A stretch of DNA of 64,000 bases. Origin: Diplonema papillatum. Taxonomy: Eukaryota; Euglenozoa; Diplonemea; Diplonemida; Diplonemidae. A model generated the notes under the pieces. It searched no databases. It saw nothing but the letters and a program-made list of their open reading frames with translations, and was not told where the DNA came from. The translations under genes were made by a program, and so were the position numbers. Positions 12,586 to 40,331 of the stretch are shown in pieces (position 1 is the stretch's first letter; every line of letters begins with the position of its first letter). The stretch is taken from NCBI GenBank assembly GCA_030068145.1, contig JAPJBO010000989.1, positions 1 to 64,000 of the forward strand, given 5' to 3'.

Positions 12586-15500
12586 TTACCGTACCCCTGG
12601 CGGCCGGAGCCTGTCCCTCTTTTGATGATGAAAAGAAAGCCGTACCCCTTCTTCTTCTGACGTGAGGTGGATCGCCATTTCGAAGTTGTCGCTGTCTTGC
12701 GCCCCGTTGTCGCCCGGGTAGCGTTTCGTAGACCTCCTGTTCTGGAGATGCATCAACTCACCGCCTTCAGCTGCATCGAGGTCGTCAGTTGCAGCGGCCC
12801 GCACGAGGAGCGACGTGTCGTATGCGGGTAAGCCTTCATCCAGGGTCGCAGGCCGCATCCAGGCAGCGTCCTCCCGTTCGCAGACTCGGGCCGGGTTCCC
12901 GATGAGGGCCGCGCAGCGGTCTTCTTCAACGTGGGGGAGCAGCACGCTGCGGGGGCCCACTGTGACTCCGTCGTTCATGTGCACCCCGGGGACTACGTGG
13001 CATGAAGTTGGCATCCGAACGCCGCGGCCGATGACTGTTCTCTCGTACTTCATGTTCCCACCCGCGAAGTTATGAGCGTACATATTCCCGCCCAAGTCGG
13101 TGACGACGACGCCGTCACCGAACTCGACGAGGTCAGCCTCCGGCGACTGCGGGGCGCTGGTCATGATGACGTTGGCGCCCACCTTTCCCCCCCGCAGCCG
13201 GTGGTACCACTGCATGATGTGCGTGCCTCCGTACACCAGCCGCAGGGGCTGCACCGCGCCTATCGACAGCGACAGGCACGCGATCCACCGAGCGTGGTAA
13301 AACGACCGCCAGGCGTGAACCTCGCTTTCGGACACCCGCCCGAGCAGGATCCACTTCCCCGCGATCGCGAGCAACGCCTGCAGTGGGGCCACAACCATCC
13401 CGAAGCACGCGAAAAAGGTGACCGTTGCGACCGCCGTCGTCAAGGACCAGGGCTGGTGCAGGTCGTCGTGCACACCGCTGGCGACCGCGGTACCGAAGAC
13501 TAGCGCGCAGATTATGAAGAAGCTGTCGGCGACGCCCCTCATCGCGCTGAAGACCATGTTGTAGCACTGAAACGGAAAGTTCGCGGCTGTATCGTGCTTC
13601 GGGTTGTACGCGACGGTGATCTTGTTTCCGATGGACATCGTCTTCGTCCGCACAACTCGACCGGCAGCAACCAAGCCCCCGGCCGAAACCGCGGACAAAG
13701 CTTCAAGCTGCGCGCCCGGGAGGACGAGGGACAACGGGCCAACGAAAGAGTCGTCCCCGAGGTGGGTCGACATGAACGTGACCGTTCCGCTGCGCACGTC
13801 GCATAGGACGCAGGGGAACACGGGGATGAACCCCCAGTACACTCGCTCCCCGGCTGACACCAACCCGGGGACCGCGTGGAACGGGCTGAGGATGTTCGAG
13901 ATGGGTATGCGGTACCCGAGGCAGCGGTACCATAGCCACATGACCGGCGTGTAGCGGAAGAGAGGCATCAGCAGCCGTTCCGTCATCCGGATCAAGCGCA
14001 GGACGAACCAGAAGCGCACGACCAGAGGCGGCGTCACCTTCTCGGTCCCGGGCTTCACCCTTCCCAGCAGCAACCACCGGACGATGAGGGTCTCCGCGAT
14101 GAAGACAGAAGTCACCAGCAAGGGGATGCAGACCAGCCGCATGAGGGACGTGGCGGTCAAGTACACGTGCTTGCCCCCGAGGGTCAGCGTCGGCTCCGGG
14201 GCTGGGTCACCAAGGCGGCCGACGCAGTACCCGGGGACCTGCGCGATCGTCCAGGCGAAGTGGGCCGTGAGTAACGCGAGGCAGACGGAAACCGTGACCA
14301 GCAGCGCTGCCAGCGCAGTGAGCTGGAGCGAGACGAGCCAAAGCGAGGTGCCCTCCTTCGTCCGCAGGAACACGTTCCCGCAGACGTCAACCGGCGGCGC
14401 GGTCCCGGGCGGAAGGACGTTGTTTTCGTACACCGTCGAGCCGGAGGGAACGACGCCTTCTGCGACCCCCCTCGGACACACCACAACACCCCTCCCCAAC
14501 TGCGTCCCCGCCATCGTGTACGACTCCGGCAGGAGGACACACTCAGCGCCGATGTACGTGTGCTTCGACACGGAGTTGACGCCGTCTGGAGTGTACGTCG
14601 TCACGCAAGCCGCGCCGATGATGGCGTCGTCCCCCACGTGCAGCAAGTCGAAGTCGCCCGCGAAGGGTCCCTCGAAGAGCACGTTCTTCCCGATTTCCGC
14701 GCCCTTCAGCCGGCAGACGATCGAAATCAGCTCGGTCTCCGAAGCCGGCGAAAGCACCGAACTCTCGATGCTCTCCCACTTCGCCACGACGTGACGCTTC
14801 AAGTCGTACCACGAGTGCCGCTTGAAGGTCCTCGGGCGGTACCTCCCGATGACTAACCACTTCAGGGCGATGCCGTACAAAATGATGCTGACGGCGAGGA
14901 CCGAGACGAAGAGGGAGAGGCGTAGGATCAAGTGTCCGAAGGTGTAGGCGGAGATCAGCGCGCCGTACGACGTGAAGCAGTCGACGTCGAGGAAAACGGC
15001 GTTCGTCGCGTGGTGGATCTGCGCCGCGTACGCAGCGATGAACGCGCTCAGGAACAGGCCCAGGCACGTCGAAGCGAATGGTGCCACCAAGAACCCAAAC
15101 TCCAGCGGCACGTTGGGCTCTGCCTCGGCGATGGCGGTGATCCGCCGCAAAACCTCGTTCTCCAGCTCATGATCGAGCAGCTTCTCCCGCAGCTTTTCGA
15201 CTTCAGCAGCGCTCGCGCCGCCGGCATTCCACGGTTTCGCGTGGCCCGGAGCTCCGTTCGCGTAGGAGTGGCGGGGCTCTTTTTCGTGGGTCTTGCCGTT
15301 GCGGGGCAGGGCGCGCATGGCGACCTGGACGACCTCTTCAACGGACTCGGCTTCGAGCACCGCCATGGGGCCAACTTTGCAGGCGAGGCTTTTGCTGATG
15401 TCCTGCGCGATGGCTGCCATGTCGACGCTGTCCAACGCAAGGCCGATCAGCGCGGCCTCCGGCGTGACGGCCCCGCCGCCTTTCGCGTACTTGGCGAGGA

Positions 15501-16212
15501 TGGCCACGACTCGGTCTCGCACGGCGGCCTCGCTGAGGACGGCGTGCGCTAGGGCCGCCGGCTTCGGGGTCCAGCGCTTCTTCGCCGGCTTCTTGCCGTT
15601 CGCGGCCTGCTGCCGCTCTGTGTGCGAGCCCTGCTGCTTCTTCCGGAGGGCACCGCGCACGGAGCCGGAAAGCTCTGCGAGGCTCTCGGCCTCCATCACC
15701 GTCATCGGCGGCACTTTGACGCCGAACTTCTTCGCTAAATCCTGCGCGACCGCGGCCATGTCGACCGAATCGAGGCCCAAATCAACCAAGGCGGTGGCCC
15801 CTGTTGTCGCCCCCAGGAGGCTCCCGGTTGCCGTCACCTTCGCGTACCTCGACACCACGGCCGTGACGCCTTCCAACACCTCCGCCTCGCTCCAACTCGG
15901 CGGGGGAGTTGGCTGCGCGTGGTCTGCGGCGTCCGCCTTGCGGGGCTTCCCTTTTCCCGCGGGCCTTCCGTTCTGCTCGCGCTCGTCCCGCTTCGCCTTA
16001 GGTGCCTGCTTGCCGAGAGCAGCGGCCGCCGTGTCGACCAGCTCTCCGATGTGGCCCGCCTCCATTACGAGCATCGGGCTGAGCCGGATGCCGAGGCTCC
16101 TCCCGATCTCCTGCGCCACCGCCGTCATGTCGACACTGTCGAGCCCCAGCGAGACCAGCGTCGCAGCCTCCGTCACAGCTCCCGCGCCTTTCGCGTACTT
16201 CTTGAGGACACC
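12586..16212 (-). CDS. Megasynthase exon 11: three ACPs and membrane terminal domain
   Basis: Starts after CTGAACAG and continues to a TAA stop at 12588-12586. A donor-like GTACGG at 12645 could instead end the exon with phase 0. The first ~330 codons hold three ACPs. Each has the phosphopantetheine serine in LGLDSVDM or LALDSVDM, near 16135, 15770 and 15430, separated by Lys/Ala-rich linkers. After a short coiled segment comes a ~850-residue region with about seven hydrophobic membrane segments alternating with three hexapeptide-type left-handed beta-helix stretches (for example HVGDDAIIGAACV and IGRGVRMPTSCHVVPG). This layout matches the terminal domain of Pls (poly-lysine synthetase) and PosA-type bacterial synthetases. 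Its role here would be membrane-linked processing or release; that is inference. Confidence 0.85.
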   Translation of the reverse strand, partial: GVLKKYAKGAGAVTEAATLVSLGLDSVDMTAVAQEIGRSLGIRLSPMLVMEAGHIGELVDTAAAALGKQAPKAKRDEREQNGRPAGKGKPRKADAADHAQPTPPPSWSEAEVLEGVTAVVSRYAKVTATGSLLGATTGATALVDLGLDSVDMAAVAQDLAKKFGVKVPPMTVMEAESLAELSGSVRGALRKKQQGSHTERQQAANGKKPAKKRWTPKPAALAHAVLSEAAVRDRVVAILAKYAKGGGAVTPEAALIGLALDSVDMAAIAQDISKSLACKVGPMAVLEAESVEEVVQVAMRALPRNGKTHEKEPRHSYANGAPGHAKPWNAGGASAAEVEKLREKLLDHELENEVLRRITAIAEAEPNVPLEFGFLVAPFASTCLGLFLSAFIAAYAAQIHHATNAVFLDVDCFTSYGALISAYTFGHLILRLSLFVSVLAVSIILYGIALKWLVIGRYRPRTFKRHSWYDLKRHVVAKWESIESSVLSPASETELISIVCRLKGAEIGKNVLFEGPFAGDFDLLHVGDDAIIGAACVTTYTPDGVNSVSKHTYIGAECVLLPESYTMAGTQLGRGVVVCPRGVAEGVVPSGSTVYENNVLPPGTAPPVDVCGNVFLRTKEGTSLWLVSLQLTALAALLVTVSVCLALLTAHFAWTIAQVPGYCVGRLGDPAPEPTLTLGGKHVYLTATSLMRLVCIPLLVTSVFIAETLIVRWLLLGRVKPGTEKVTPPLVVRFWFVLRLIRMTERLLMPLFRYTPVMWLWYRCLGYRIPISNILSPFHAVPGLVSAGERVYWGFIPVFPCVLCDVRSGTVTFMSTHLGDDSFVGPLSLVLPGAQLEALSAVSAGGLVAAGRVVRTKTMSIGNKITVAYNPKHDTAANFPFQCYNMVFSAMRGVADSFFIICALVFGTAVASGVHDDLHQPWSLTTAVATVTFFACFGMVVAPLQALLAIAGKWILLGRVSESEVHAWRSFYHARWIACLSLSIGAVQPLRLVYGGTHIMQWYHRLRGGKVGANVIMTSAPQSPEADLVEFGDGVVVTDLGGNMYAHNFAGGNMKYERTVIGRGVRMPTSCHVVPGVHMNDGVTVGPRSVLLPHVEEDRCAALIGNPARVCEREDAAWMRPATLDEGLPAYDTSLLVRAAATDDLDAAEGGELMHLQNRRSTKRYPGDNGAQDSDNFEMAIHLTSEEEGVRLSFHHQKRDRLRPPGVR

Positions 16213-19200
16213 CTGTTCAGAAGAGCGTTTTTAACTGAAGGTTCGCTTGAGGATCCGGGGTTTAGAAGCCTCCGGGTGGCCACCGTTCATGGATTGATCG
16301 TATATTGCTATGCACAACCTTATTCTTGGCGGTGTGCATGTTCGTGTGTGTTTTTGTTGCCTGTCGTAACTGATCTTATTTGAGGTTGAAATCGGGGTAT
16401 TAGCTAATCTCCGGCCTGCAGTCAGAATTGGTATTAGTTCCGATTGCGAGAGGGTCTAAAAACGGGGCTCGAACAGGTGGAAGCGGCGTGAAAAGGTGAC
16501 AAGATAGTACTAAGATTAGAGCGGCGAGCGGAACTCGTTACGTGTGTATGAGTGCACACCTTTACGATACCGGCCACGTCAGCGGGCGCGGACTCCGCCG
16601 GAGATTCGTCTTCGGCGGCTTCTGCGTCCTCTCCGTCATCTTCGGCGTCTTCGTCGGTACCTTCCTCTTCCTCCGCCTGCGGCGGCTGTTGGTTGTGGTA
16701 AGAAGTGACAAACTACTGTGTGCGCCGTGACCACCTGCAAGACAGACACTTTTTGTAGCGTTATTTGTTGTTCTAACAACAAAGTGGACGGACCCCAACT
16801 TACTTCACCCACCTCATGCGACGATTGCTACGTCCTTGCTGATGACATCCGTCCTCAGTAAGGGCGGCCTTTTTCTTCTTCTTCTTTTTTTCTTCTCCTA
16901 CAACAGGATCCTGGGTACCAGGGAAAGCCTGCTACACGGGAGACGTGTTCGGCGGTACTGCAGAGCCACGGGCCTGCGGGTCAAGTGGCTACCGACCTCC
17001 CAAACTAAAGCATCAAGGCATGGAACACCTTGGGGCTTGGCGCTTGCGCTAAACACAAGCTCGTCGAGACGGTCAGCCACTGGGCAGAGCGGACGGGGTT
17101 GTGGCACTGTGTTGCCCCCGACTCAAGCTTTGCAAGCTGTGGTTGACCGTCACGTTCCTGAACCAGGAGCGGCCTTTTTAGAGTGAAAGTTCGCTTGAAA
17201 TTCCGGGGTTTCAGGGTCTCCGTGTGACCGTTCATGAATGGGTTCTCTTAGAGCAAGAAAGGGCTACACGGCTACGCGTTGCATATTTAGTGCACGCTTT
17301 CGTTATGGTTATGGCTAGCCATGTCCGGGACTGTTTGTGACCGTGACACCAAGTACATTCCTTCGTGGGGTGTAGTCTTGGGCCCCCCACGTTCTACAAG
17401 TTGAGCAGGGGTTGCCTTGTAGCCCGTACCGGTCTGTTGTCCGCGTTTTTATGTCTTTTCTCGTAGAGTAGTTCTTGGGTTTCGCGACACTTGCGGTGCT
17501 TCACGTGGTGCGGGTTGTTTCCGCCCTAATATAAGGTTTTTCTTTTTTCTTTTTCTTTCTCTTTCTTCTCCTTGCCCTGCCTCTCGACGCGGGATCACCG
17601 CTGTGTCCACGTCTCTTCTCAGGAGAAGAAGCCGTCAGGTGTCACCCATGTTGTGTCACCCATGTTGTGTCACCGGATAAAGTGACAGGAGAGGGACTCC
17701 CCGTTACGACCTACGTCCGGGTTGCTAACTGATTCTCTGCCACTACCTACGTTTCGAATGAGGCGGATCGGGAGAACTAGGGAGCCGGCCACAACCCTCC
17801 GCCCTCTTCCCACCGTGGCCCAATGGGCCTGAAAGAAAGGGAGCTCGTTACTCGCGCAAACCCAAAGTCTGACATAAAACCAATGATGATGTATGAGAAA
17901 GGGAGAGTTGTTCTCGTTGAATGCAGTGCCTGATCGATTTACGTATAGCTGCAAGTGAAAACGCCACGGGTTGCGGTGACAGGCTTCGCATTTCTTCCGA
18001 CATTTCATGTTTTGGGAAAAGAATCAAGGACTTCATCACGAAGTGGCGCCTTGGGACTTCGCTCCGCATTCGCCACCTGACAGTCGAAACAGCGCTGAGA
18101 GAGCTTGCACTAACCGGCCCTGTCAAGCAGCTTCTCCGCCGGGGCAAACGTGTTTGTGCGTGTCGTCGAAGTCGCCTCCTGTAACCAACTCGATTCAGCC
18201 TTGTGGCCTTGAAATCGCGGGGTCGAGGTGGGTACCAAAAAGTTGCCGCACATGAGAACCGGAAATACTCGACGCAGCTGCTTCGACTCCGAATGGAAGG
18301 GAGAGGTACCTACCCTCCCCCGTGCATAAGATGGATGAAAAACTCGGGTTTTAGCAGTATCCATCTTAATCAAGGGGGGTATCCATCTTAAACACGAGAC
18401 TACAGAGTAGTCACTTTGCACAGGGGTACCTCACCGCCGTGTTTAAGATGGATTGGCATTATCGCCCGTTATCCATCTTAGTCAAGGGGGTTTGGCTATC
18501 CATCTTATGCACGGGGGGGGGGGGGGGGGGGGGGGGTAGGTAAGGGGCAAATACAATACAAACACAATCTGTTTTGTTCTTCGCTTACACCACCGTGTGT
18601 TACTTTCTCACTCAGGACTTTGACCTGCAGCTGTGTTTGTGTGTGTTTTGTCGTGGGGGTAGACACGCATGACCTCACGTCCGTTCAACACGTGGTTCGG
18701 TGGATACAGCACTTGGGATCCCTTCTGTTCCTTGTCGGGCAACTTCGTCGAGCGTTTCCTTTCAAGCTGGCGCTTGTGTTACACAAGAAAAAGCCAGGCA
18801 CCGGGATCTTCCTGACGAGCACGCAACCCGGTGAACTTAATCAAGAGTCGAAGATTAGCGTCGAAACTTCCTGGCTTTTCACGCCGCAGCAGAACGACCA
18901 CACCCTACCCAAACCCAAGCACCCTCTAAACGCGTTAGGGGACTTCACAAGGTTTCACAACGGAGTGACACAACACCCGAAACGAGTCGCACTCTTTTAC
19001 TTTTCTCAACCCCCCGCCATACCCAAGCCTCTACGGTCAACCGGAGACTTTAAAATACCGACCTTCTAATCCACAAATAACGCTAAAAAGCACACCGTGA
19101 CCAATTCGCTGAAGAAGTTGTTGTTCCACGGACTGTCGCCCATCAGCTCGCGGAGGTTGCCCCACTTGAAATCGCTCACGCATAGCACGGGATCGGCGCC

Positions 19201-25200: not shown

Positions 25201-28200
25201 ACCTCGAGTCCAAGTGCCTGTTGCATGGAAGTAGTTTGTCCACGTCTTTTCGCCTGGCCAATACATTGCAGGACAACCCACAAGATTGAGAGAGAGAGAG
25301 AGACGAGTTAGAGTGCAGGGACCATCTCTTCGAGGAGTATCCGGTCGCCCCACTACTAGATTGATAGTACAACAATACTCGAGGGGCCGCCTGCTAACCT
25401 CGACGGAGGCTAGAGGGGGGGCAACAACAACAAAGTAGATACTTTTTTGGAGAACGATAACTGGAGTTTTATGTCAGCTTCGTGGGCTTCGCAATTCGAC
25501 ACAAACAGGAGTAATTCTCGTTCCCAATCTCTCGCGTCCCAATGCTCTGCCAACCAGTTAAAGGAAGTGAACCCAGTTGGCAGGAACCCCTGTTTGGGAG
25601 AAGAGGAGTCGGTCATAAAACATAGGTTAAATTGACATGAGCCACTCAAAGAGATTTTAACGTGCTCGTTACTACGAGCACAACCGCGGCTGATCCAAAA
25701 CTAATGATGATGACGATGGGGTAAGTTGTTTTCGTTGAACGCATTTTACTCCTCATCTCCTCCAACAGAAACACTCGAGGGGCTGCCTTGTGCTTACTTC
25801 GAAGGAGGTTAGAGGGGGAGAAACAATACAACTACAAAGTGGGTCGTTTTCGCTGAACGCTTACGCCCGTCACTAAATCCAGATTTACCTGTGTTTCGTG
25901 TGGACTACCGCACCTTTACCTCCTTTGGCTCTTGTTGCGGTAGCGATGTTTGAGGTGTGAAAGTGCCTGCCTTTGTCCCCCGTGAGGAGGGAGCCGACAG
26001 GCAACCAAAGGATCCCCTTGCGACCCCCCACACGGGGCGACAAAGTGGATTATAATCCTCTTTGTCGTAAACCCAATCTACTTTTTGTCGGTTTCCCAAA
26101 ATAATGACGAATCTTTTTGGTTGAACGCTGACGCCCGCCACTAAACCCAGATTTACCTGGGCTACCGCACCTTTACCTCCTTTGGCTCTTGTTGCGGTAG
26201 CGGCTTGTCCTATGTTTGAGGTGTGAAAGTGCCTGCCTTTGTTACCCGTGTGTAGGGAGCCGACAGGCACCCAAAGGATCCCCCACAAATGCCCCCACAC
26301 GGGGCGACAAAGTGGATTATAATCCACTTTGTCGTAAACCCAGTTTTATAGAATCTACTTTTTGTCGGTTTCCCAAAAAAAGAATAACGAATGTTTTTGG
26401 TTGAACGCTGACGCCCGCCACTAAACCCAGATTCACCTGTGTTTCGTGTGGGCTACGGCACATTTACCTCCTTTGATCTATCGCAACTGGCTGTTTCCTC
26501 AAGCATTTCCTACAAAGCGGGTGCTTATATAATAAAAAATCCTCACTCCTATGCTTGTGTCTGTCACTCTCGTCCACCGCTCCTGCTCTGCTTGCCGCGC
26601 GCCGTATGGTTGGAGTAAAAAGGTGAAGCCAGAAAGCTGCTAATCTTGCTGCTGACCACATGAAGTGGTGCAAGCTACTTTGTTTCTCTGGACGGATTGG
26701 AGCGGCAAACCTGTCGTTCGGATTATTATTAGTCTTCAAAGACAACAAGTTTCTTTTCCTACCAAAATACTCGACGTAGCTGCTTCGACTCCGAATGAAA
26801 GGGGGGAAATATAGAGGTAAGGGGCAAATACAATACAAACACAATCTGATTTGTTCTTCGCTTACAGCACCGTGTGTTGTTTTCTCACTCAGGACTTTGA
26901 CCTGTTGTGTTTGTGTGATTTGTCGTGTAGGGGTAGACCCGCATGACCTCACGTCCGTTCAACACGTGGTTCGGTAGTTACAGCACTTGGGATCCCTTCT
27001 GTTCTTTGTCGGGCAGCATCGTCGAGCATTTCCTTTCAAGCTGGCGCTTATGTAAAAAAAAAAAAAAAAAAAGGGCGCAGACCTCGAAACGGACCAGGCG
27101 GTTGGGCGTTTTGTAGTGCAGCGACGGCGGAATGCGGCCGCGCGACAGAATTAGGGCGGCCTTGATCACGCTGGCGAGGGCCGCGGCGCACTCGAGGTGC
27201 CCGATGCCGCTCTTGACGCTGCCGAGCAGCAGCGGCCGCGCCCGGCGCGGCGCGCCGAGCACGCGGCCTAGGGCGCTGAACTCGATCGGGTCCCCCAGCC
27301 GGGTTCCTGTACCGTGCGCCTCGACGTACACTACGTCTTCCGGGTCAACCTCCGCTGCTGCATACGCAGCCCGGAGCAGGCTCTCCTGCGCCGCGGGGTT
27401 CGGCGCCGTCAGGCCGTTAGACCGTGCGTCTTGGTTCAGGGCGGTGGCGAGCACCTTCGCGTAGATCGGGTCTCCGCAGGCAACGGCGTCGTCGAGGCGA
27501 CGCACCAGCACCGCGCCGACGCCTTCGCCGCGGACGTAGCCGTCGGCCGAGTCGTCGCCGAACTTGCACGAAAACGTCGCGGACAGCATCCCGGCGACCG
27601 CGAAGCAGTCGCTCCACGCTTCGACCAGCTGAATGTTCGCGCCACACACCAACGCGCTGTGGCACTGCCCGGCGCGGATGGCCTTCAGCGCGGCGTCCAT
27701 CGCCGTCAGCGAGCTTGAACACGCAGTGTCCATCGAAACGCTGGGCCCGCTGAAGTCGAGGGCGTACGATATCCGGTTCGCGGCTATCGACAAGTGCCAC
27801 GCGGTGCCGGAGTAAGGGGTCGGGTCCATGCCGCCCCGCTCGACGGCGGCCATGCACAGCGTGCCGTACTCCACCATCGACACGCCGACGAACACACCGA
27901 CCCTTCTGTCCTCCAGGTCTTCGACGACGATCCCCGCGTCCTCAAACGCCTCCCGGGCCACCTGCAGCAGCAGCCTCTGCTGCGGGTCCATGCACCGTGC
28001 CTCAGCCGCCGAGATGTTGAACGCCTCGCGGTCGAACCCTTTCACGACCCCCGCGGAGAGGTACCCGCTAGGCCGCCCGTTCGACGGCCGATCGCCCGGC
28101 GTCGGCACGACGCAGTTCTTCTCGGCTTCGAGGTTCCGGAAGAACTCGCCCGGCGTGTTCGCGTTCCCGGGGAAGCGGCAGCCCATGCCCACGATGGCGA

Positions 28201-31200: not shown

Positions 31201-34200
31201 CAGCGCCCGCTCCATGGCCGCCTGCCGCTGGCCAACGGGCACCGGGACGACGGCCCGCACCAGGGGCGCGAGCCGCGGCGCCGCCGCCGCTTCGAGGAGG
31301 CCGAGGTCAGCCGCCGCCGCCGCCGCGAGGTCGGCGCAGACGGGGTGCACACCGGCCTGCTTCCGCTGCTTCGCGTACCGGGCCCAGTCGGCCGGGAACA
31401 CGCCGGCGTGGGACAAGGCGGGGTTCGTCATCGACTCAGCGCAGAGCGTCCCTGTGAGGGTGTTTTGACGGTGCATGGACATCGATGGATGCGCAGCATC
31501 GATACAGCATGTGATCCGTCTTCGGAGAAGTCACGGAGGACAGTCTTTTGGCACGCCCTCTTCCCGGAGGAGTGACGTATCCGTCTAGTGTACTAGTCGG
31601 AGAAGTCACGGAGGACAGTCTCTTGGCACGCCCTCTTCCCGGAGGAGTGACGGAGACAGCCTCTGAGAATGGTACACAGCCTTCTTGGAGACGTCACGAG
31701 AGGACAGTCTCTGGGACAGGGGACGTTATTCTGTGCATGTGAATCAGTGCATGCGCCTCGATGTCATACCAGTGCACGGACATCAATGCATGCGTATTAG
31801 TGCAGAACAATCGAAGCATGCGTATTAGGTGCATGCGCCACGGACGTCGTGACGACCCAGGACACTAGGCGTTGCAACTGGCGGCCTTCCTCAGTGCTCC
31901 CTCCCCCCTGCAAAAAGCAGCTTCGTTTTTCGAGCTGCGCCGGTTGATCGGTTTCCCACTTGTATTCTACTGTTTCATTTTCAGGTTAGGAACTCAATCA
32001 TCGAGGCAATGAGCCAATTTTCGTTTCGCTGATATCCAACGAGCCAGGTTTCGTTTCGCTGATATCCAACGAGCCAGGTTTCGTTTCGCTGATATCCAAC
32101 GAGCCAGGTTTCGTTTCGCTGATATCCAACGAGCCAGTTTTCGTTTCGCTGATATCCAACGAGCCAGTTTTCGTTTCGCTGATATCCAACGAGCCAGTTT
32201 TCGTTTCGCTGATATCCAACGAGCCAGGTTTCGTTTCCCTGATACCGCCAGAGTTGACAATTTCAAACGTCATCTGAGGGGATAACGACTACTAATTGAG
32301 GAGGGGCGGCGAGACGTAAAACACACCAAGCGTGTTCATGCCGGCCTCGAGGGGGACGAACTCCATGCCGAGGCTCTTCCAGAACGCCTCGAACCCGGAG
32401 CCGAAGCGGGAGGCCATGCCGGCGTCCGCCCACGTGCCCCAGCTGACCGCGAGGGCCGGGAGCCCCGCCCGGCGGCGGGCGAGGGCGAAGCCGTCCTGGA
32501 ACGCGTTGGCCGCCGCGTAGTGCGCCAGCTCGCGGTGCCCGAGCACGCCGTAGATGCTTGAAAACAGCACGAAGTGGTCCAGCGGCAGCCCGTGCTCCTC
32601 GGCGGCCGTGTGCAGGTTCACCGTGCCGGCCACCTTCGGCCGCAGCACCGCCTCGACCCTCTCCCACGTCTGGTCAGGCACCGCACCGTCGTCGACCACA
32701 CCCGCCAGATGGAATATACCCTTCACGGGTAGGGCTGGTGTGTCTGCATTCTGCCCACCTGTTTTTTCTTTTCTTTTAGAGTTCAAGTTCGCTTGAAACT
32801 CCGGGGTCTCCGTTGTTATATGGGTTCTCGTGAGCTTTTTAGTAGGTGTGTGTTCACTTTTTGTGCTAACGATGCATTGTTGGCACCAAGAAGTAGTCGT
32901 CGTGGCAGCGTACTGCATGAAACATAATGACGCGGGTGAGTTCCAAGACATCCACCGATAAGTGCAATTGATGTCAACCTCGATCGACCGCAGTTGAGCC
33001 GTGGGGAACAGTTGTTTTGCCTTTCCGATTGCTCGGGAATGGACGGAGTACCCGAGCACGCCAGCAACCTTGTTACGACTTTTGCTTCCTCTAGCTGAGA
33101 AATATTACTTGGATTCCGCCAGTGCGCACAGACGAAGCAGTAGTAGGTAGTAGTATGTGGGCAGTTTGGCTCTTTCTTTACTTTTCTCTTCTTCATGATG
33201 GAGACCCGCCCCCAGGCAATCGACTGTCCAATCAACGGTCGCGGAAGGTTTGTGCCCTGTAGTGATGAGGGCCTCCAAGCCGCCTAATGCACAACACGGC
33301 TACAACACGAGGACGCAGCCCTGCTTAGGTGTGCACTCAGCCCTCACAGGGCCCCAGTTGTTTGTGGTAACTACCGCCGTTGTCATTATCAAAAAGTGAC
33401 GGTTGGCAGCGTCCTGTGGAAATTACCATACAGGTGATAGCACATACGCACAAACAAACTTCCCCCGGTACACGTGCTCGCCGTAAGGGACTCTATCCTG
33501 GAATGGCCTCGGCCACATCCAGCGGCTACCCGCAAAGCCCAGCCCCATCCCGCAGGGCGCACCCAAAAATACTCGGGGGGCTGCCTTGTGCTTACTTCGA
33601 AGGAGGCTAGAGGGGGAGAAACAATACAACTACAAAGTGGGTCTTTTCTGTTGAACACTTACACCCGCCACTGCACCCAGATTCACCTGTGTTTCGTGTG
33701 GGCTACAGCACATTTACCTCCTTTGATCTTTTGCAGCTGGCAGCCTCCTCAAGTATTTCCTTCAAAGCAGGTGGCTATACAACAAAAGAAAGCGCCATAC
33801 CAACTTTTTTCAGCCGCGCGAAGAGCTCTCGGACGGAGTCCAGATCCGACACGTCGGCGAGTTCGACGCTGACGCGGGCCCCCGTTTTGCCCTCCACAGC
33901 CGCGATCTCGGCGAGGAGCTCTGCTGACGGCTTCCGCCTGGCCACCAGCACGATCGACCGCAGCCCCCAGCGCTCCGCCATGGTCTGCGCCAGCCGCATG
34001 CCGAGGCCGCCGGTTCCCCCGGTGATGACGTACGTTGCGTTCTTTTCGAACTTCGCGTCCGGGGTGGCGTGCGGGAGGAGAGTACGCCGAACCAGCCTGG
34101 GGGTATACCGCTGGCGGGCTCTGTAGGCGGATTCGCCGAATGCGAGTCCTTCGTCGGCACTGGAGATCTCTGCAAGCAGCGAGCGCGCAACGAATTGCGC

Positions 34201-37200
34201 GTCGTCATCGCCCGGGCACAAGTCGACGATGCGGCAGCGTATCGACGGCCGCTCGGCCGGGACGACCCTGGCCATGCCCCAGAGCGCCTGGTGCGCGGCG
34301 TCGACCGCCGCGCACTTCCCGGGCACCGGGCGGCCCCCCGCCAGATCACTCACCGCAGCGCCCCTCGTGACGACCCAGAGCTGGGTGCCGGTTTTCGCAC
34401 CCGCGCGGTACACCGCCTGCAGCACGGCGAGGAACCCCCGGAGCACGGAATGCGTCGCTTCGACGGTCCCCGGGCCCAAGCCCGCAGCCTCCCCCCCCGC
34501 GAGCGCCCACATGAAGACCACCCCGGAGACGCCGGTTTCAAGCGCCTTCGTGTTGAATCCGGCATCGCCGGCTGGAGGCGGGGCGATTAGGTCGACTTGC
34601 GCGGCGCCCGCCAGCTTCAGCCCCGCGGCAACCCGCGCCGCGAGCCCCCGCTTGTCGCCGCCGAGAACGACCCACCGGCCCCGCACCGCCACAGGCGGCG
34701 TCCGCAGGGCCTCCGGCCTCCACTCGACGCTGTACGTGTCATCCTGCAGAGCGGCAGCGGTGGCCGCTCCGGGAAGCCCCGCTGGCGTCGCGAGTTTCGC
34801 CCGGGTTTCGCCGTCGCGGCGCTTGAGTTCCGCCTTCGCGACTTTGCCGGTGCCGGTCAGCGGCATGTCCGCGAGGATCTCGATCTCCCGCGGGACCTTG
34901 TAGTCGGCGAGGAGGCGGGCGCAGTGCCGGCGCAGGGTCGCCTGCGTCATTTCGGAGCCGCGGTGCAGCTCCACCACCGCCTTCACGACCTCGCCCAGCA
35001 GTGGGTTCGGCACCCCAAACACGCCGACATACTTCACGTCCGCGTGGCCCTGGAGCACGCGCTCAACTTCGACGGAATACACGTTCTCCCCGCCGCTCAG
35101 GATCATGTCCTTCTTCCGGTCGCACACGGTGATGTACCCGTACGCCCCGACCGTCGCCAGGTCGCCGGTCTTGAACCAACCTCCCTCCGCAAACGCCTCG
35201 GCCGTGGCCTCGGGTAGGTTGTGGTACCCTTTGAACACCGTCGGTCCCCTAATCTGCACTTCTCCGACCTCGCCTGTGTTGCGTGTATTTTGAGTTAAAG
35301 TTCGCTTGAAATTCCGGGGTTTTAGGGTCTCCCTGTGACCGTTCATGAATGGGTTCTCTTAGAGCAAGAAAGGGCTATGTGGTTACGGGTTGTATATTTA
35401 GTGCACGCTTTCGTTATGGGTTATGGCTATTTGTGTCCAACAAGCGCAGGTTGTCGAAGAACAAACCCCGATTGACGGCAGCGTACCATCCTCATTCAGC
35501 TGAAGAAAACAGGTTTGAAGAACCTCACCTGTGTTGCATTTGTGTCCAACAAACGCAGTTTGCTACAGCACATTTACCCCCTTTGGGGTTGGAATATTGT
35601 TGCGATAGTGGGGAGTCATCGGCATGCTGATCGAGAACCACACTATACCTGTGAGATTTCGCACAACTGGCAGTCTCCTCAAGGATTTCCTACAACGCAG
35701 ATGCTTGTTACAAAATGCTCGAGGGGCTGCCTTGTGCTTACTTCGAAGGAGGCTAGAGGGGGAGAATCAATACAACTACAAAGTGGGTCTTTTTTTTGTT
35801 GAACGCTTACGCCCGCCACTGAACCCAGATTCACCTGTGTTTCGTGTGGGCTAAAGCACATCTACCTCCTTTGATATTTTGCTGCTGACTGCCTCCTCAA
35901 GTATTTCCTGCAAAGCAGGTGCTCATCTTGCAAGGTGGCCGGTGCGTCCTCACGGGCCCCGACGCACGCCTGCGTCCTCTTCATCCAACCTTTAAGAAGG
36001 CCGCGGAAGTCGGCTGAACCGGGAGCTACCGGAGAAGGTGTATGTGCCTAGGTATTACAACCTGGTTCGATTGCGGGGTAATACCTCGGGGATGAAAGAC
36101 TGCGTATTTTTCCATTTGTTGAACGCTTGTGCCCGCCACAAAACCCAGATTTACCTGTGTTTCGTGTGGGCTACAGCACATTTACCTCCTTTGATCTATC
36201 GCAACTGGCAGTCTCCTCAAGCGTTTCCTACAAAGCAGGTGCCTATACAAGAAACAATGGAAACGTACCTGACAGAGGGGCGACCAGGGCGCCGTCGTCT
36301 TTGATCACTCGCATTTCGAACCCGGGGAGCTCGAAGCGCTTGCCTGAAGTGCACACGAGGTCGATCTGCTCGCCGGGGGGCAGCGAGCGGACGTCGGCGC
36401 TGTTCAGCAGCGACATCGCGATTTTGCCGCAGCTCTCGGTCATGCCGTAGGACTGGAACACCTCGCACCCGAAGACCGCGATGGCGCGGAGCGTCGTCTC
36501 GCGGTTGAGCGGAGCGCCGCCGCAGGACAGCATCTGCAGGCTCGTAAAATCGCGCTTTTCGACGCCGGGGTGCGCGAGGAGCAGCGTCGCCATCGTCGAC
36601 GCCATGTTCGTCACCGTGACCCGCCGCTTCTCGATCGCGGCCAGCGCGCCGGCCGCGGTGAACGACGGCACGAACACGTGGCTCCCACCCACCCACGTGA
36701 TAGAGAACATCCCGTACGCGTCGACCAGGTGGAACATCGGCGCGATGTGCCCCCACACGTCTTTTTTGTGGTGCCGGTGCTCGATCATGCACCCCAAGGC
36801 GTGCAAGCAGACGGCACGATGCGACAGGATCACGCCCTTCGGCCGCCCCGTCGTCCCCGACGTGTAGTACATCTCGCAGTTCCCGTCGGCGGTGTTCTCG
36901 GCCCGCCGGAAGGCGGAGGCCGCGGGCTGCGAGGCTGTCGCCTCGAAGTCGTCGTGGAACACGCCCGGCAGCGCGGCGCGGCCCGCGGGCGGTACGCCAC
37001 CGACCCACAGCAGCCCTTTGACCGTGTTCTTCTCCGAACACCGCACGGCGTCGATGATCAACGGGGCGAACTGCGCCGACGCCACCAGCACCACGGGCTC
37101 CGCGTCGTCGAGCACGAAGCCCAGCTCATCCGCGGACAACCTCTGATTCAGGTTCAGCACGCACGCGCCCGCCCCAGCGGACGCGAAGTGCGCCTCCATG

Positions 37201-40200
37201 CACTGATACACATTCGGCAGGATCACCGCCACTCGGTGCCCTTTCGGCACCTTCACGGAATCGCGAAGGTACGCTGCCAGGGCGCAGGACCGCTGGTAGA
37301 AAGCCGCGTACGTGGCGGTGTGGTCGCCTTGGTAGTACGCCGGGTGGTCCGGCCAGCGTTCGACGGCGTGGCAGAGGATGTCCCACGTGTTGAACGCGCC
37401 GCTGGCTTCCCGCCGGGCGAGCTCCCCGCGCGCGAACGACGTGTCGAATGCGCGGACGGTCGGTGCGTAGAACTCGCTCGGGTCGTCCTTCGCCCGCTCG
37501 AGCCGCTGCCCCCGCGTGAGGTGCTCGCGCAGGCCTTCCTCCGGCGCCGGGTTGCCCCACGCCTTGCCCAGCGACGCGCCCAGCAGCGGCAGCGCGATGT
37601 GCGCGGGCACGTCCGCACACCGGCGGACGTCCACCACCACCACCAGCGGCGGCGCGCCGGGGCGCCGCCCCCGCAGCACCTCGGCGAGTTCCTCGGCAGT
37701 CCCGGCGACGACGGCTTCGCACCCGAACCCGCCCGCAAGCTCCGCGAGCGCCGCCGGGCCGGGGACCGATGCGTCGAGGCACTTGGGGGGCGGTTTCCCG
37801 GCGAGCGCGCTGGGGAAGGACAGGGCGCCACGCGCCTGGTTGCAGAGGACGAACAGCGCCGCCGGCGCCGCTGGGCCGGCGAGCAGAGCGGAGAAGGCAC
37901 GCGCGTGTGCCAGGAACGCCGTGTCGCCGGCGATGACGACGGGCCGGGGTTCCCCCCGCCCGGCGAGCAATTCGGCGGCGGCGATCGACCAACCGGCGGC
38001 GGCGGAGCCGGGGGGGAGCAGCCGCGGGCTGCGGCGGAGGCGTTCCGCGCCGAAGGCCGCGGCGCAGCCCGGCCCGCACACGGCGGCCGCCGGGCCGAGG
38101 AACTCGTCGAGCTGCGCGAAAAACGCCGCGCACGACAGCCCCAGACCACGCCGTTTTGGGGGGGAAACCTCAGATTCTAACCCCGTTTCGGGCAAGACCT
38201 CGCCAGCGACCGCCGCGTGGGCGGCCGCGATCCGCGCGTGCAGCGCACTCGCTTCCTGGCGGCACGCGGGTCCCAGGCGGGCCGCGAGCGCCGCGACCCC
38301 TGCGGAAGCCCCGCCGGCGCACGCCGCAACAACGAGCGCCGCGGCGGGCGTTGCGGGGCCGGGGGGCAGGGCGGACAACGTCAGGGAAAGGGGGGAGACG
38401 GTGAGGACGAAGTCGCAGGACCCGACGACGGGCAGGAACGCGTCGGGGATGAACAGCTCGGCGGTGCCGGCGGTCGCCCAGACCCATGCCTCGTGGCCCC
38501 CCGGGAAGCCGTCCACGAACGCAACGTCGGCGACCACCGCCGCCTGCAGCCCCTCGACAACCTCCACCAGCGCTGCCCGCCCGCTGGAATCGAGCGCCGC
38601 GGAGACCCTGACCAGCAGCCGGCCGTGGGCGGCACGTAGCCTCGGCAGGATCTCCTCCGGGATGACGATTGCCGGCGGCGGCGCGGCCGGGGACTCGGGC
38701 GGCGGGGCGTCGATGAACCCCAGGCCGCAGGAGAAGCAGGTGATCGCGGGGGGGTGTCCTGCGCCGTTCTCGGCGGCGCGCGTGAAGGCGGCCGCGAGGT
38801 GATCGGCGGAGGGGAGGGGGACGAGCCGGGCTGAGGGGTTCGAAGGCAGGACGACGGCGGAGAAAACGGCCTCGAAGGCGGCTCGTTCGGCGGCCGTCGC
38901 CGCGATCGACGCGAGGAAGACGGGGCGCTGCAAGGGAACGGGGGCGTCCGGGAGCGCGAGCGAGCGGGAAGCAGGGGAAAAGACCGCGAGCGGCGCCGCC
39001 GCGGAGCGGTCGCCGCTCGAGGCGCCGACCGCCGCCGCCAGCGCGCTGGCGACGCACCACGCGGCGTCCGGCCCCCGTATTGCGACCGCCAAGCGGCCGG
39101 CGTTCGCCTCGTCCACGAACACGTCTCCGAGAACCCCCGTCGCCACCGCCGCAAGCGGCGGGGCCCCCCCTGGGACCTCCTCCGGCGCCGCAGCACCGTC
39201 GTCGTCGGCGGCGCCCCAGTCGCCGCCGACGTCCTCGATCGCGACCCAGGACCCGGCGCCGCCGGCGAGCGCAGCCTTCAGATCTTTCGAAGGAGGCCCT
39301 CCGCCGGCAAAGTGGCACGCCCGGCCGAGCCCCGCGGCCAGGGCCGCCAGCGCGGTCCGCGCCGCGCCCGGGATTTTCCCGGGAAACGGGATGAGCACCG
39401 AGACTTTCGGTGCGCCGGCTAGCTGCCCGCACTCGTGGCGGGTCAGGTAGGCGTGCGTGGCTACCAGGATGACGGGGGCTTCGCGGGACGGCGCCTGCTG
39501 CTGTTCGGCGGAGCAGCCGATGAGCGACGCGAAGAGGGTGCCGGGGCGGGTGAGGTCAGCGGCGGCGACCGAGACGCCCGCGGGGAAGCGCGCGGCGGCG
39601 CCCGCAGCAAGCGAATGGTGCGGGGTGAACAGCGTCGAAACGGGCGGCAGCCACGCCGCGATACCAGCGGCGGCCGGCGAATCTCCGGGCGCGGGAGCCC
39701 CGCCGCACGCCGCGAAGAACGCGCCGGAGGCGGTGGGTGCGGCACCGGGGGGTTTTGCGACCTCGCGGGTCAACTTCAGCACGGAGGGGCCCGCCTTCAC
39801 GGGCGACTTCAACAGCGCCGGAGGGAATAACAGGACGCAGGGCGTCCTGGTATTCGCTTCCGCGAGCGCTCGAACCACCATTTCCAACGCGCCTTGGACG
39901 CCGGCGTGCGGCGGAGACACGCCGTGGGTCGAAGCGCCTGTGCCCTCGCAGATCCGGCGCCCGCAGGCCGGGTCGTCGATGCACGCGAGTACGAAGAAAG
40001 GCACGCTTTTCGAGCTGGCAGCCCGCAGCGCGCGGCGGAGGCTGTGCAGGGACTGGGGCCCGGACGCCAGGGCGCACGGCAACCCGCCCGCGAACGCGGC
40101 GGAGGCGAGGCACGCGTCGGCGGCTTGGGCCTCCGACGGCGTGGGGACGAAGCGGACGCCGGCGGCCGAGAGGGTTTCGGCGGCGAAGCAAGCGGCTTGT

Positions 40201-40331
40201 GTCGTGGGTTTGCCGAAGGCGACGGACACGCCGGCGGTCCGGAAGAGCTCGGCCACGACGCGGGCCACGGTGTACGTCCGGTCCTCCTCCAAGCGACCCC
40301 CCGAAACGGAAAACCCGTTGCGGAAGCCCAT
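12586..40331 (-). CDS. Giant modular polyketide synthase-type megasynthase, 11 exons
   Basis: The proposed gene joins 40331-36269, 35273-33801, 32734-32327, 31451-30820, 29668-29597, 28414-27083, 25217-25078, 24028-21274, 19212-19096, 16685-16560 and 16212-12586. Reading phase is kept across every junction, giving about 4,914 residues. Domain order: ThDP enzyme-like, AMP-binding acyl ligase, KR, ACP, ACP, KS, AT, KR, acidic linker, ACP x3, and a Pls/PosA-like membrane terminal domain. There is no dehydratase, enoylreductase or thioesterase. Known family logic suggests acid activation, one malonyl extension and ketoreduction on carrier-bound intermediates. The ThDP and terminal domains are unusual partners. 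Introns consist of dispersed repeats. Because junctions were chosen by eye, single boundaries could shift. The locus could also be two transcripts, but ACP and KR domains split across exons tie most exons together. Confidence 0.75.
16213..16559 (-). other. Intron 10
   Basis: Donor GTGTGC after GTAAAG, acceptor CTGAACAG. The acceptor-proximal third (about 16228-16310) is an R3 copy. Short, 347 bases. Confidence 0.65.
16560..16685 (-). CDS. Megasynthase exon 10: acidic linker and start of ACP3
   Basis: A 42-codon exon between acceptor CAACCAACAG and donor AAG|GTGTGC. It encodes PPQAEEEEGTDEDAEDDG, more Glu/Asp/Ala, then SAPADVAGIVK. That last segment fuses with GVLKKYAKG of exon 11 to complete helix 1 of the third ACP. 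The strong acidic bias, preserved phase and the completed ACP helix support it. The same region is also open on the plus strand, but there it makes no known domain. Confidence 0.7.
16686..19095 (-). other. Intron 9, repeat-filled
   Basis: Donor ACG|GTGTGC. The first ~285 bases (19075-18793) are R8, nearly identical to 52215-52495. Then come R2 (18790-18600), a foldback element (18317-18540), an R10 segment (about 17876-17960), R3 (about 17420-17180) and R4 (17180-16905). Small open frames in it look random. Confidence 0.65.
18317..18540. repeat. Foldback element with GATGGAT inverted repeats
   Basis: Ends are CCCCCGTGCATAAGATGGAT and its reverse complement, and inside are more inverted copies of ATCCATCTTA. 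A run of about 20 G ends it. Confidence 0.7.
19096..19212 (-). CDS. Megasynthase exon 9: end of second KR
   Basis: A 39-codon exon between CACCGCAG and ACG|GTGTGC. It encodes VLYSGADPVLCVSDFKW followed by GNLRELMGD, the typical segment after a polyketide KR in which a small helix is followed by a strand ending in D.DW or DFKW. Phase 0 at both ends fits exons 8 and 10. Confidence 0.75.
19213..21273 (-). other. Intron 8, repeat-filled
   Basis: Donor GCG|GTGTGT. Directly behind it lies R9 (about 21240-21085), then R1 copies (21075-20866, 20640-20330 and shorter pieces to 20147), R6 (20864-20637), R10 copies (about 20120-19972 and 19880-19715), a 48-base tandem duplication near 19625-19715, and R4 (19550-19255) just before the acceptor. 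Confidence 0.65.
21274..24028 (-). CDS. Megasynthase exon 8: acyltransferase and second ketoreductase
   Basis: 918 codons. The AT has the GQGSQSVGMG entry motif (near 23690), the nucleophile elbow GHSLGE (near 23420) and, further on, VTHGFHSSQ near 23115. That is a HAFH-type signature pointing to malonyl rather than methylmalonyl units. A linker with a KR structural half (22600-22000) follows. The catalytic KR has NADPH-binding TGGTGALGLQLA near 21900, the serine segment LFSSVTSLMG near 21500 and the YGAANA tyrosine near 21460. No dehydratase or enoylreductase lies between AT and KR. The exon opens with NTTALRPSGRVLVPISA, the usual KS-AT linker. Confidence 0.9.
24029..25077 (-). other. Intron 7 with decayed copies of the AT exon start
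   Basis: Donor read as CG|GCAGG (GC-AG type), acceptor CGCCCGCAG. The right part has R7 (about 24960-24820). 24119-24412 and about 24476-24710 are truncated, rearranged copies of the first part of exon 8 (acceptor, NTTALRPSGR..., then internal deletions), each with the same upstream flank CGTCGTTTAATACAAAG. Confidence 0.65.
24119..24810 (-). pseudogene. Two truncated copies of the AT exon 5' end
   Basis: Copy A (24412-24119) starts with the same acceptor and NTTALRPSGRVLVP codons, then jumps by deletion to the EEA/LTCER part and to a KVAF-like part. Copy B (about 24710-24476) keeps less. Both end where exon 8 would continue. Neither can supply a functional AT. Confidence 0.75.
25078..25217 (-). 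CDS. Megasynthase exon 7: end of ketosynthase
   Basis: 47-codon exon after CATGCAACAG. It encodes ALGLEVAGTSGG and GVSGFGFGGTNGHCILQQHR. The GFGFGGTNGH motif is the conserved C-terminal KS element. It completes the KS begun in exon 6, whose last codons are RLVRFE. Confidence 0.85.
25218..27082 (-). other. Intron 6, repeat-filled
   Basis: Donor GAG|GTCTGC followed by an A run (minus sense) and R2 (27055-26780). R1 is at 26530-26398 and 25860-25770, R10 at about 25770-25675 and 25365-25270. A ~245-base direct duplication (25905-26110 and 26155-26395) contains GACAAAGTGGATTATAATCC. Confidence 0.65.
27083..28414 (-). CDS. Megasynthase exon 6: end of ACP2 and ketosynthase body
   Basis: 444 codons. 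The first ~35 (IEATQLEDLSPTFVYECVTL...LLLEEL) finish ACP2. A Pro/Ala linker leads into the KS: FAIVGMGCRFPGNA, the active-site cysteine in DTACSSSL (near 27730), the first catalytic His in EAHGTGTRLGDPIE (near 27310) and the second in SVKSGIGHLECAA (near 27205). All three catalytic residues are present, so the KS should condense. The exon ends at RLVRFE before GTCTGC. Its 5' 280 bases occur twice more upstream. Confidence 0.9.
28135..29455 (-). repeat. Triplicated exon 6 5' end, ~450-base units
   Basis: Three copies begin, in transcript sense, with the acceptor at 29321, 28870 and 28414. Each encodes IEATQLEDLSPTFVYE... to GEFFRNL (about 95 codons). Only the third (28414) continues into the KS body. 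The other two turn after CGGAACCT into a shared TTCTGGGAGAG...TAAAGGCGCAATAAAACC tail. Differences among copies are few; the units are nearly identical. Confidence 0.9.
28415..29596 (-). other. Intron 5 with two extra copies of the exon 6 start
   Basis: Donor CTG|GTATGA, acceptor CACAAACAG. Between them lie two tandem copies (unit about 450 bases) of the beginning of exon 6 plus its upstream flank. See the repeat entry. Confidence 0.7.
29597..29668 (-). CDS. Megasynthase exon 5: core of ACP2
   Basis: A 24-codon exon bounded by GCACACAG and CTG|GTATGA. It encodes IDVEAPVVELGLTSMHVVDI and TQKL. ELGLTS carries the phosphopantetheine serine and resembles DLGLTSMHVVDL of ACP1 in exon 4. Phase 0 on both sides connects exon 4 to exon 6. 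Confidence 0.8.
29669..30819 (-). other. Intron 4, repeat-filled
   Basis: Donor GAG|GTCTGC, then R1 (30797-30610) about 20 bases inside, and R2 (30615-30470). An R5 end fragment may lie near 30310-30365. The stretch 29710-30290 has no recognised element. Confidence 0.6.
30820..31451 (-). CDS. Megasynthase exon 4: end of first KR, ACP1
   Basis: About 211 codons after CACAG. The start (GTLCAESMTNPALSHAGVFPADWARYAKQ) is the usual end of a polyketide KR. An Ala-rich linker (AAAAAADLGLLEAAAAPRLA) leads into ACP1 with DLGLTSMHVVDL near 31130 and a complete helix 4 (SPTLVYECVTVRALAERLL). A tail (LPSRQRKAALLKMLVELTKELLDDEDQE) looks like a helical linker to ACP2. Confidence 0.85.
31452..32326 (-). 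other. Intron 3 with a 30-base tandem array
   Basis: Donor CTTG|GTGTGT, acceptor CCTCACAG. It contains an 8-copy 30-base array (32011-32250), a ~72-base direct repeat with GGAGAAGTCACGGAGGACAG at about 31529 and 31601, and GTGCATGCG-type short repeats near 31735-31840. Confidence 0.65.
32011..32250. repeat. 30-base tandem repeat, 8 copies
   Basis: Copies begin every 30 bases from 32011 with GAGCCA and contain TTTCGTTTCGCTGATATCCA. Only a G/T difference and edge changes separate the copies. Because 30 is divisible by 3, it is open in several frames. Confidence 0.95.
32327..32734 (-). CDS. Megasynthase exon 3: catalytic half of first KR
   Basis: 136 codons after GACACACCAG. LPVKGIFHLAGVVDDG continues the KR Rossmann fold of exon 2. 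FVLFSSIYGVLGH holds the catalytic serine (near 32570). HYAAANAFQDGFA holds the Tyr-x-x-x-Asn pair (near 32515). VSWGTWADAGMAS is the lid-region motif. All catalytic residues are present. The exon ends at MNTL(G) before GTGTGT. Confidence 0.9.
32735..33800 (-). other. Intron 2, repeat-filled
   Basis: Donor GTTG|GTATGG. R1 (33785-33565) follows within 20 bases. R12 lies at about 33350-33185. The R3 core (32830-32776) ends about 40 bases before the acceptor. Confidence 0.7.
33801..35273 (-). CDS. Megasynthase exon 2: acyl ligase C-domain and first KR N-half
   Basis: 491 codons. The first ~150 finish the AMP-forming ligase: GWFKTGDLA (near 35180), DRKKDMILSGGENVYSVEVE (near 35105) and PLTGTGKVAK with the catalytic lysine (near 34845). 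Then comes a structural KR half with WVVLGGDKRGLA, and the catalytic KR nucleotide-binding motif VITGGTGGLGMRLA (near 34030). It ends at ARLKKV before GTATGG. No KS precedes this KR, so in this order it would reduce a carrier-bound group made or loaded by the N-terminal domains. Confidence 0.9.
35274..36268 (-). other. Intron 1, repeat-filled
   Basis: Canonical donor CAG|GTACGT and acceptor CAACACAG. From the donor: R1 (36255-36115), R9 (about 36110-35985), a second R1 (35930-35710), and R3 (35420-35290) ending about 15 bases before the acceptor. Confidence 0.75.
36269..40331 (-). CDS. Megasynthase exon 1: ThDP enzyme-like region and acyl ligase N-domain
   Basis: About 1,354 codons from ATG 40331. 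Residues about 15-170 resemble the N-terminal domain of thiamine-diphosphate enzymes such as acetolactate synthase: TVARVVAELFRTAGVSVAFG, a Glu in PSEAQAADACLA near residue 66, then GPQSLHSLRRALRAA. A long Ala/Gly/Pro-rich middle follows. Residues about 740-900 resemble the ThDP-binding domain, with GDTAFLAH... and an Asn about 29 residues later (FVLCNQ). The second half is an AMP-forming ligase: YYTSGTTGRPKGVILSH (near residue 1154) and QSYGMTESCGK (near 1295). It would activate a carboxylic acid. Whether the ThDP part is catalytic is uncertain because GDG is GDT here. Confidence 0.8.

Follow-up and report, generated by a model that had tools for sequence, protein, structure and literature searches.

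A single nuclear gene of Diplonema papillatum almost certainly encodes one type I polyketide synthase (PKS) chain of the architecture described here. In this chain, a degenerate acetolactate-synthase-like thiamine diphosphate (ThDP) region is followed by an acyl ligase (AL), a ketoreductase (KR1), two acyl carrier domains (ACP), a module of ketosynthase (KS), acyltransferase (AT) and ketoreductase (KR2), three further carriers and a Pls/PosA-like membrane domain. The gene lies in a window of 64,000 nucleotides, which is the whole stretch of DNA analysed here (C989:1-64000) and belongs to a genome of 271.4 Mb in 2,910 contigs. Since the sequence is already public under the uninformative name 'EryA1', the new part of the finding is the architecture and the family that shares it.

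Eleven exons on the minus strand join into one open reading frame of 14,781 nt and 4,926 residues with a single terminal stop, and all ten introns of the joined model have a GT donor and an AG acceptor (Table 1). The public protein P0017 (NCBI 'EryA1 [Diplonema papillatum]', 4,912 residues), a check independent of the splice-site choices made in the present analysis, is identical to the eleven-exon protein over residues 1-4907. It ends exon 11 at 12646, and its C-terminus EEEG-ITAAM needs a donor after this position, for which one acceptor within the window fits (9705-9688). The last 19 residues of the eleven-exon model are probably intron read-through, and a very short twelfth exon approximately 2.9 kb downstream may form the end of the gene; apart from these residues the gene model is unaffected. 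A GT is present at the homologous place of a second genomic copy on contig C9 (see below), where a pattern search found no homologue of exon 12. The protein of about 4,900 residues from eleven in-phase exons that the preliminary description had proposed was thus recovered with the same span (12586..40331) and exon number, and it is only the C-terminal end that the public model places elsewhere.

Table 1. Features of the synthase gene in the window, with the evidence for each.
Feature	Position	Strand	Evidence
Whole gene, 11 exons and a probable 12th	9688..40331	-	joined frame, splice sites, public model P0017
Exon 1: ThDP-enzyme-like region and beginning of acyl ligase	36269..40331	-	ORF join, Pfam
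Exon 2: end of acyl ligase, beginning of KR1	33801..35273	-	ORF join, Pfam
Exon 3: remainder of KR1	32327..32758	-	ORF join, Pfam
Exon 4: carrier domain 1 (Ser2100) and beginning of carrier 2	30820..31451	-	PF00550
Exon 5, 24 codons: carrier 2, Ser2214 region	29597..29668	-	conserved with C9 copy
Exon 6: ketosynthase, Cys2456, His2591, His2630	27083..28414	-	PF00109, PF02801
Exon 7: C-terminal extension of ketosynthase	25066..25217	-	conservation with C9 copy; PF16197
Exon 8: acyltransferase (Ser2923, HGFH 3024-3027) and KR2 (Tyr3575/Asn3579)	21274..24028	-	PF00698, PF08659
Exon 9: end of KR2 region	19096..19212	-	tblastx conservation with C9 copy
Exon 10: acidic linker and helix 1 of carrier 3	16560..16685	-	tblastx conservation with C9 copy
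Exon 11: carriers Ser3744, Ser3867, Ser3980 and Pls-like membrane domain	12586..16212	-	PF00550 (three stretches), PF00132, TIGR02353
Probable exon 12 (ITAAM-stop)	9688..9705	-	single matching acceptor for P0017 C-terminus
ThDP region, residues 21-891: PYR1 (Glu67), degenerate PP1, presumed PYR2, TH3, PP2	37659..40271	-	PF02776, PF02775, P0020 alignment
Acyl ligase (AMP-binding, AMP-binding_C), exons 1-2	34807..37370	-	PF00501 2.7e-73, PF13193 1e-15
KR1, exons 2-3, Tyr1926/Asn1930	32424..34038	-	PF08659 and residues
Pls/PosA-like domain: three repeats of helix pair and left-handed beta-helix	12879..15105	-	hydropathy, alignment, fold model, fold search

The Pfam scan of P0017 recovered, in its strong part, two KR stretches, AMP-binding with its C-terminal domain, both KS parts (N and C) and the AT, and further four PP-binding stretches, the KS extension PF16197 and a hexapeptide match. 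The fifth carrier (ACP2, split over exons 4-6) was recognised by its LGLTSM motif and by alignment. The acyl ligase is complete, stands ahead of the carriers and contains TSGTTG and Lys1498, while KS, AT and carrier share one chain with Cys2456, His2591, His2630, Ser2923 and the carrier serines, the features by which a type I cis-AT PKS is recognised. No dehydratase (DH), enoylreductase (ER) or thioesterase (TE) was among the Pfam families matched by the exons or the full protein. The catalytic assignments rely on motifs that we take to be diagnostic (KS Cys-His-His, AT Ser-His, KR Tyr-Asn, carrier Ser, ligase Lys), as do the PYR Glu and the GDG-NN cofactor motif, which were located in the sequence in the same way. 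Presumably, HxFH in the AT suits malonyl-CoA and LDD/VDD in the KR suits B-type reduction. The domain series announced earlier was therefore found again by Pfam and NCBIfam scans and by alignment, and the catalytic residues said to be visible in both KRs, the KS and the AT could all be located.

The genome holds a full-length collinear paralogue at C9:614873-635818 (10 exons, 4,958 residues), which is 66.4% identical to the window protein over 5,024 columns with 203 gaps. Nine junctions are shared, each with matching position and phase in the two copies. Several splice sites, chiefly those of exons 7-10, were chosen by comparing the copies, which makes the two models interdependent at these places. 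The window copy has an intron between exons 2 and 3 that the C9 copy lacks, and a comparison of the intron sequences at E 1e-8 found only repeats and partial exon copies in common. Omega between the copies, calculated after Nei-Gojobori with dS of at least 1 in several parts, so that single values are rough, was 0.13 for the AL, 0.16 for the KS, 0.15 for the AT with linker, 0.26 for KR1, 0.24 for KR2, 0.21 for ACP1-2, 0.35 for ACP3-5, 0.35 for the ThDP region (PYR1 0.15, the stretch behind it 0.49) and 0.30 for the Pls-like domain. Every part is constrained, most weakly the three tandem carriers and the two ends. At C809:100791-101381, C2532:10007-10597 and C36:172671-172820 lie short segments with 53-66% identity to the ThDP region, one of them with a stop, which are perhaps remains of further copies.

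Several observations concern the repeats and the surroundings of the gene. The 5' part of the KS exon stands together with its acceptor three times in tandem (29038-29339, 28587-28886 and exon 6 from 28414; copies 96.1-99.7% alike), the first two copies running into stops and being absent from P0017, and the AT exon of the C9 copy likewise has three extra copies. Repeat-bounded genes of D. papillatum are described in PMC10161547. Approximately 10-15 bases past the donor sites of introns 1, 2 and 4 lies a repeat of 140-220 bases (36112-36260, 33566-33791 and 30614-30806); a genome search with it brought up 797 candidates at first look, and the 40 that were scored had 94-100% identity. Intron 2 could have been gained with such a repeat. 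Upstream of the synthase and on the same strand lies a gene for a Maf-like protein (43009-43665, minus strand; PF02545 2.2e-50), which was the single Pfam match among ten neighbouring open frames scanned for a gene cluster. Long open frames on the opposite strand of the GC-rich exons were attributed to base composition.

A protein search with exon 1 among full-length candidates scored 1,130 proteins, nine of which passed, namely the window protein, P0018, P0019, P0020 and five adenylation-domain proteins (two of them named Kribbella and Streptomyces) with 13-24% query coverage and no TPP domain listed. P0018 is a EukProt transcript with a 'complete' ORF of 5,022 residues and PF02776 listed, P0019 is a EukProt transcript ORF of 4,400 residues in which a Pfam scan detected no TPP domain, and P0020 is an ENA ORF of 6,114 residues on a contig of 18,948 bp. 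All three keep the domain order from the acyl ligase onward; that P0018 and P0019 are diplonemid sequences is a guess. Identity to the window KS amounts to 90% for the C9 copy and to 70%, 65% and 58% for the three relatives elsewhere. The search for the same architecture, suggested at the outset for other protist genomes, thus yielded relatives. The preliminary description's claim of an undescribed combination stands as far as it was tested, but the synthase is not a singleton: the genome has a second copy, and three related sequences come from other samples.

In a tree of 86 KS sequences (the window and C9 copies, P0018-P0020, 80 bacterial loci and one of the four other KS loci of the same genome), the window, the C9 copy and P0018-P0020 formed one clade with support of 100/100 on a long stem, apart from the 80 bacterial KS. 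The loci L003 and L004, which matched fewer than 250 columns, and L006, which gave no match, were left out. Among the other KS matches of the genome, L003, L005 and L006 (on C11, C284 and C600) lie in open frames of 1,256, 3,475 and 3,577 codons. For the bacterial set, 502 pattern matches contained 329 relatives, from which 80 loci were kept; 44 of these 80 were at least 20 kb long, and all were chosen by KS patterns, so that a bacterial relative whose KS has diverged or whose contig is short could escape. Their KS were 37-50% identical to that of the window, 24 of the 80 loci had an acyl ligase match, and none matched the ThDP or Pls parts of the window protein or of P0020, or the Pls part of P0018 (E 1e-4). 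An origin in bacteria as judged by the closest KS was rejected on the KS identity and on the lack of any ThDP or Pls match in these loci. One scan of viral contigs with the ligase alignment returned 19 pattern matches and no relative.

Within the ThDP region, PF02776 covers residues 21-116 and PF02775 residues 774-891. In the exon piece, TPP_enzyme_N scored 27.5 against a cut-off of 26.8 and TPP_enzyme_C a marginal 21.9 against 21.9, and in the full protein the scores of 24.9 and 19.7 were both under these cut-offs (26.8/21.9). The resemblance to acetolactate synthase is clearest in P0020, whose precomputed list contains TPP_enzyme_N, M and C and whose N-terminal region reached 217.6 bits with TIGR00118 (cut-off 538) in two stretches, the better one at residues 669-1101; the subdomain borders in Table 1 are a reading of the alignment to this protein. 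The region is approximately 900 residues long, whereas a normal enzyme has about 550-600. P0020 offers an explanation for the surplus in the form of a second, degenerate PP copy, seen in a single BLASTP comparison (29% over 135 columns, E 8e-7) and in the hhalign alignment of the PP1 and PP2 family profiles (E 1.7e-4, probability 49%). A second PYR copy is presumed; no PYR1-PYR2 repeat was detected by hhalign (E 0.39). A fold model of the ThDP region (mean pLDDT 34) was rejected as evidence.

The cofactor motif differs between the members of the family. It reads GDT...CN in the window copy (GDT802-804, CN830-831) and in the C9 copy, not the intact GDG...NN, and GDG...ND in P0020; no motif of the GDG...NN type was found in P0018 by pattern search, and P0019 keeps GDG at a shorter spacing but lacks the glutamate and a large part of the region. 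Glu67, which we take to be the catalytic PYR glutamate, aligns with the glutamate of P0020 and is kept in four of the five family members. Thiamine chemistry is likely to have been ancestral to the synthase family, and in the window copy its persistence is doubtful, because the cofactor motif is altered and the Pfam matches are marginal. The 'ThDP enzyme-like' assignment of the preliminary description consequently stands as homology, of the acetolactate synthase type, and becomes doubtful where it is taken to mean an active enzyme.

The terminal domain carries KW/RW..GR motifs at residues 4169, 4430 and 4671 and matches TIGR02353 with 4.5e-36 and 124.5 bits, which is under the curated equivalog cut-off of 423.1. 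In a whole-genome search with this model, the C9 copy reached 106.8 bits and three pieces of the window copy 56.8, 39.8 and 37.6 bits. Given that 13 of 14 well-known control genomes also gave matches at E 0.001 (one above the cut-off), the score alone is weak, and weak TIGR02353 matches signify little beyond beta-helix acyltransferases. Hydropathy peaks stand in three pairs within the domain; seven further peaks above 1.6 lie in soluble domains. His4765 is one of 15 columns invariant in all 18 aligned sequences, which comprised the window protein, 14 of 15 database matches (P0015 was left out) and P0018, P0019 and P0020. A fold model built on this alignment (mean pLDDT 67.6, pTM 0.70, 218 of 822 residues below 50) showed three repeats of a long helix pair, short helices and a beta-helix, and the same architecture of helix pair and beta-helix was predicted for the terminal domain of PosA (PMC10522769). 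The nearest solved folds were left-handed beta-helix acetyltransferases and carbonic anhydrases, with five of 429 matches at E <=0.001 and TM values of about 0.1 when normalised by the model and up to 0.5 when normalised by the target. As judged by these sequence and fold comparisons, the domain is homologous to the Pls/PosA domain. The Pls-like membrane end named in the preliminary description is accordingly upheld by the motifs, the invariant His4765 and the fold model, at a score under the NCBIfam cut-off.

The best overall explanation, to which we give about an even chance, is an acid-started PKS with a relic ThDP region and release at the membrane. The acyl ligase would adenylate a free carboxylic acid and load ACP1/ACP2, and KR1 would reduce a keto group of the carrier-bound starter; the substrate of KR1 is a guess, because it has no KS of its own. 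The KS would add a malonyl unit selected by the AT, and KR2 would reduce the new beta-keto group to a hydroxyl, which would be retained because no DH or ER was found. The product would then queue on the three tandem ACPs until the terminal membrane domain, in place of a thioesterase, passes the acyl chain from an ACP to an amine or hydroxyl acceptor at the membrane; the homologue of this domain makes the amide bonds in epsilon-poly-lysine and delta-poly-ornithine synthetases. We infer the individual reactions, the location at a membrane and the release step from the domain order and from homology, and hold the roles of the AL in starting and of the Pls-like domain in releasing with roughly balanced confidence and the chemistry of the starter with low confidence. 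The ThDP region of the window copy would be a relic or a scaffold. The variation of the ThDP motif between family members favours a relic, whereas purifying selection (omega 0.35; PYR1 0.15) and the retention of Glu67 argue against a pure one.

It is also possible, though rather unlikely, that the ThDP region has remained active and supplies the starter in cis. Like acetolactate synthase, it would couple one keto acid, after decarboxylation, to another, so that the AL would activate an alpha-hydroxy-beta-keto acid and KR1 would reduce its beta-keto group to give a dihydroxyacyl starter. This would supply KR1 with a substrate and account for the order ThDP-AL-KR, and it would agree with P0020, in which the same order comes with GDG...ND, TPP_enzyme_M and the match to acetolactate synthase, as well as with the glutamate shared by four of five members and the low omega of PYR1. 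However, the motif is GDT...CN in both D. papillatum copies and its pattern is absent from P0018, P0019 lacks the glutamate and a large part of the region despite its GDG, and the acetolactate synthase score of P0020 is itself far under the cut-off. Equally improbable in our view is an iterative enzyme whose Pls-like domain links many short hydroxyacyl units into a membrane oligomer, in the way Pls and PosA treat amino acids. Homology to a polymerising domain, three tandem ACPs and the nucleophile that hydroxyacyl units bring with them would fit such a polymerisation, but the Pls/PosA substrates named in PMC10522769 are diamino acids that an adenylation domain activates, whereas here a polyketide module intervenes and nothing indicates repeated use. 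Less probable still is a bolder reading that covers D. papillatum and the three other samples (P0018, P0019 and P0020), in which the family builds its own starter with a single-chain acetolactate synthase pseudodimer whose one good site is formed by PYR1 together with PP2. The starter would be reduced within the loading module, the product would be exported or polymerised via the membrane-embedded Pls-type acyltransferase, and some members would have lost the thiamine step while retaining everything else.

We consider it very improbable that the locus gives at least two mRNAs, for example one ending in KR1, and no single chain of 4,900 residues. The EukProt model P0001 of the paralogue, the first 469 residues of which equal the C9 copy, does stop after 1,758 residues in the KR1 region, and wrong structures were reported for 125 of 319 automatic models on three contigs (PMC10161547). 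Yet P0001 omits a conserved stretch after residue 469 and breaks inside a domain, as a model error would, and its truncation is apparently an error of gene prediction; the public model covers the window gene without a break, and the two transcript ORFs of other samples are 5,022 and 4,400 residues long. Transcripts ending between modules had been named beforehand as evidence against one chain; P0018 and P0019 span all ten junctions in the alignment, which is close at most of them but has gaps or is weak at junctions 2, 9 and 10, with junction 7 as a further such place in P0019.

Diplonemids are abundant, poorly known marine protists, and the synthase suggests that D. papillatum, and perhaps other diplonemids, make a polyketide not yet looked for. 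It further suggests that a polyketide line can be terminated by a membrane domain that is known from amino-acid chemistry and makes polymers there, and, via P0020, that a thiamine enzyme may be wired into a polyketide loading module, a point that is testable since the relatives stand at different stages of ThDP decay. Every part of the synthase is of a known kind, and their order was not found described in the literature searched. In this literature, mostly non-subscription and covered as titles and beginnings of abstracts, we found neither a ThDP region joined to a polyketide line nor a Pls-type end on one, in agreement with the preliminary description, which knew of no synthase combining the two, nor did we find such a synthase from a diplonemid. 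Passages of PMC10161547, PMC10522769, PMC4661987 and PMC7073580 show none, and the word 'polyketide' is absent from the main text of the genome paper PMC10161547.

Among the systems compared, P0020 is alike in its order ThDP-AL-KR-ACP-ACP-KS-AT-KR-ACPs-Pls-like, with 58% identity in the KS and 54% in the AL, and unlike the window protein in its GDG...ND, its listed TPP_enzyme_M and an AT-like stretch after the Pls-like domain (residues 5635-5920, 27% identity, E 2.7e-11). Acetolactate synthase large subunits (TIGR00118) have PYR, TH3 and PP parts that are recognisable in P0020, whereas the region of the window protein counts about 900 residues, includes a second degenerate PP copy, is fused to a synthase and is altered in its cofactor motif. 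Acyl-ligase-started type I PKS (NF045894 PKS_plus_SDR, and NF040607 Pks13, high-scoring by part) share the AL in front and the KS-AT-KR extension, and differ from the window protein, which has KR1 within the loading part, a ThDP region in front, no TE found and a Pls-like end. The Pls/PosA homo-poly-amino-acid synthetases (TIGR02353; PMC10522769) have the same three helix pairs and three left-handed beta-helices, but there an adenylation domain and a carrier precede the terminal domain (A-T-Pls), whereas here a polyketide synthase does (PKS-Pls), and the KW..GR motif occurs three times in the window domain compared with once in the bacterial P0013 and P0014. A Pls-type end (TIGR02353, 199 bits) is also borne by a nonribosomal peptide synthetase of the same genome (C253:175339-180930, L124 1839-7430), in which condensation, adenylation and carrier domains stand in place of the polyketide domains.
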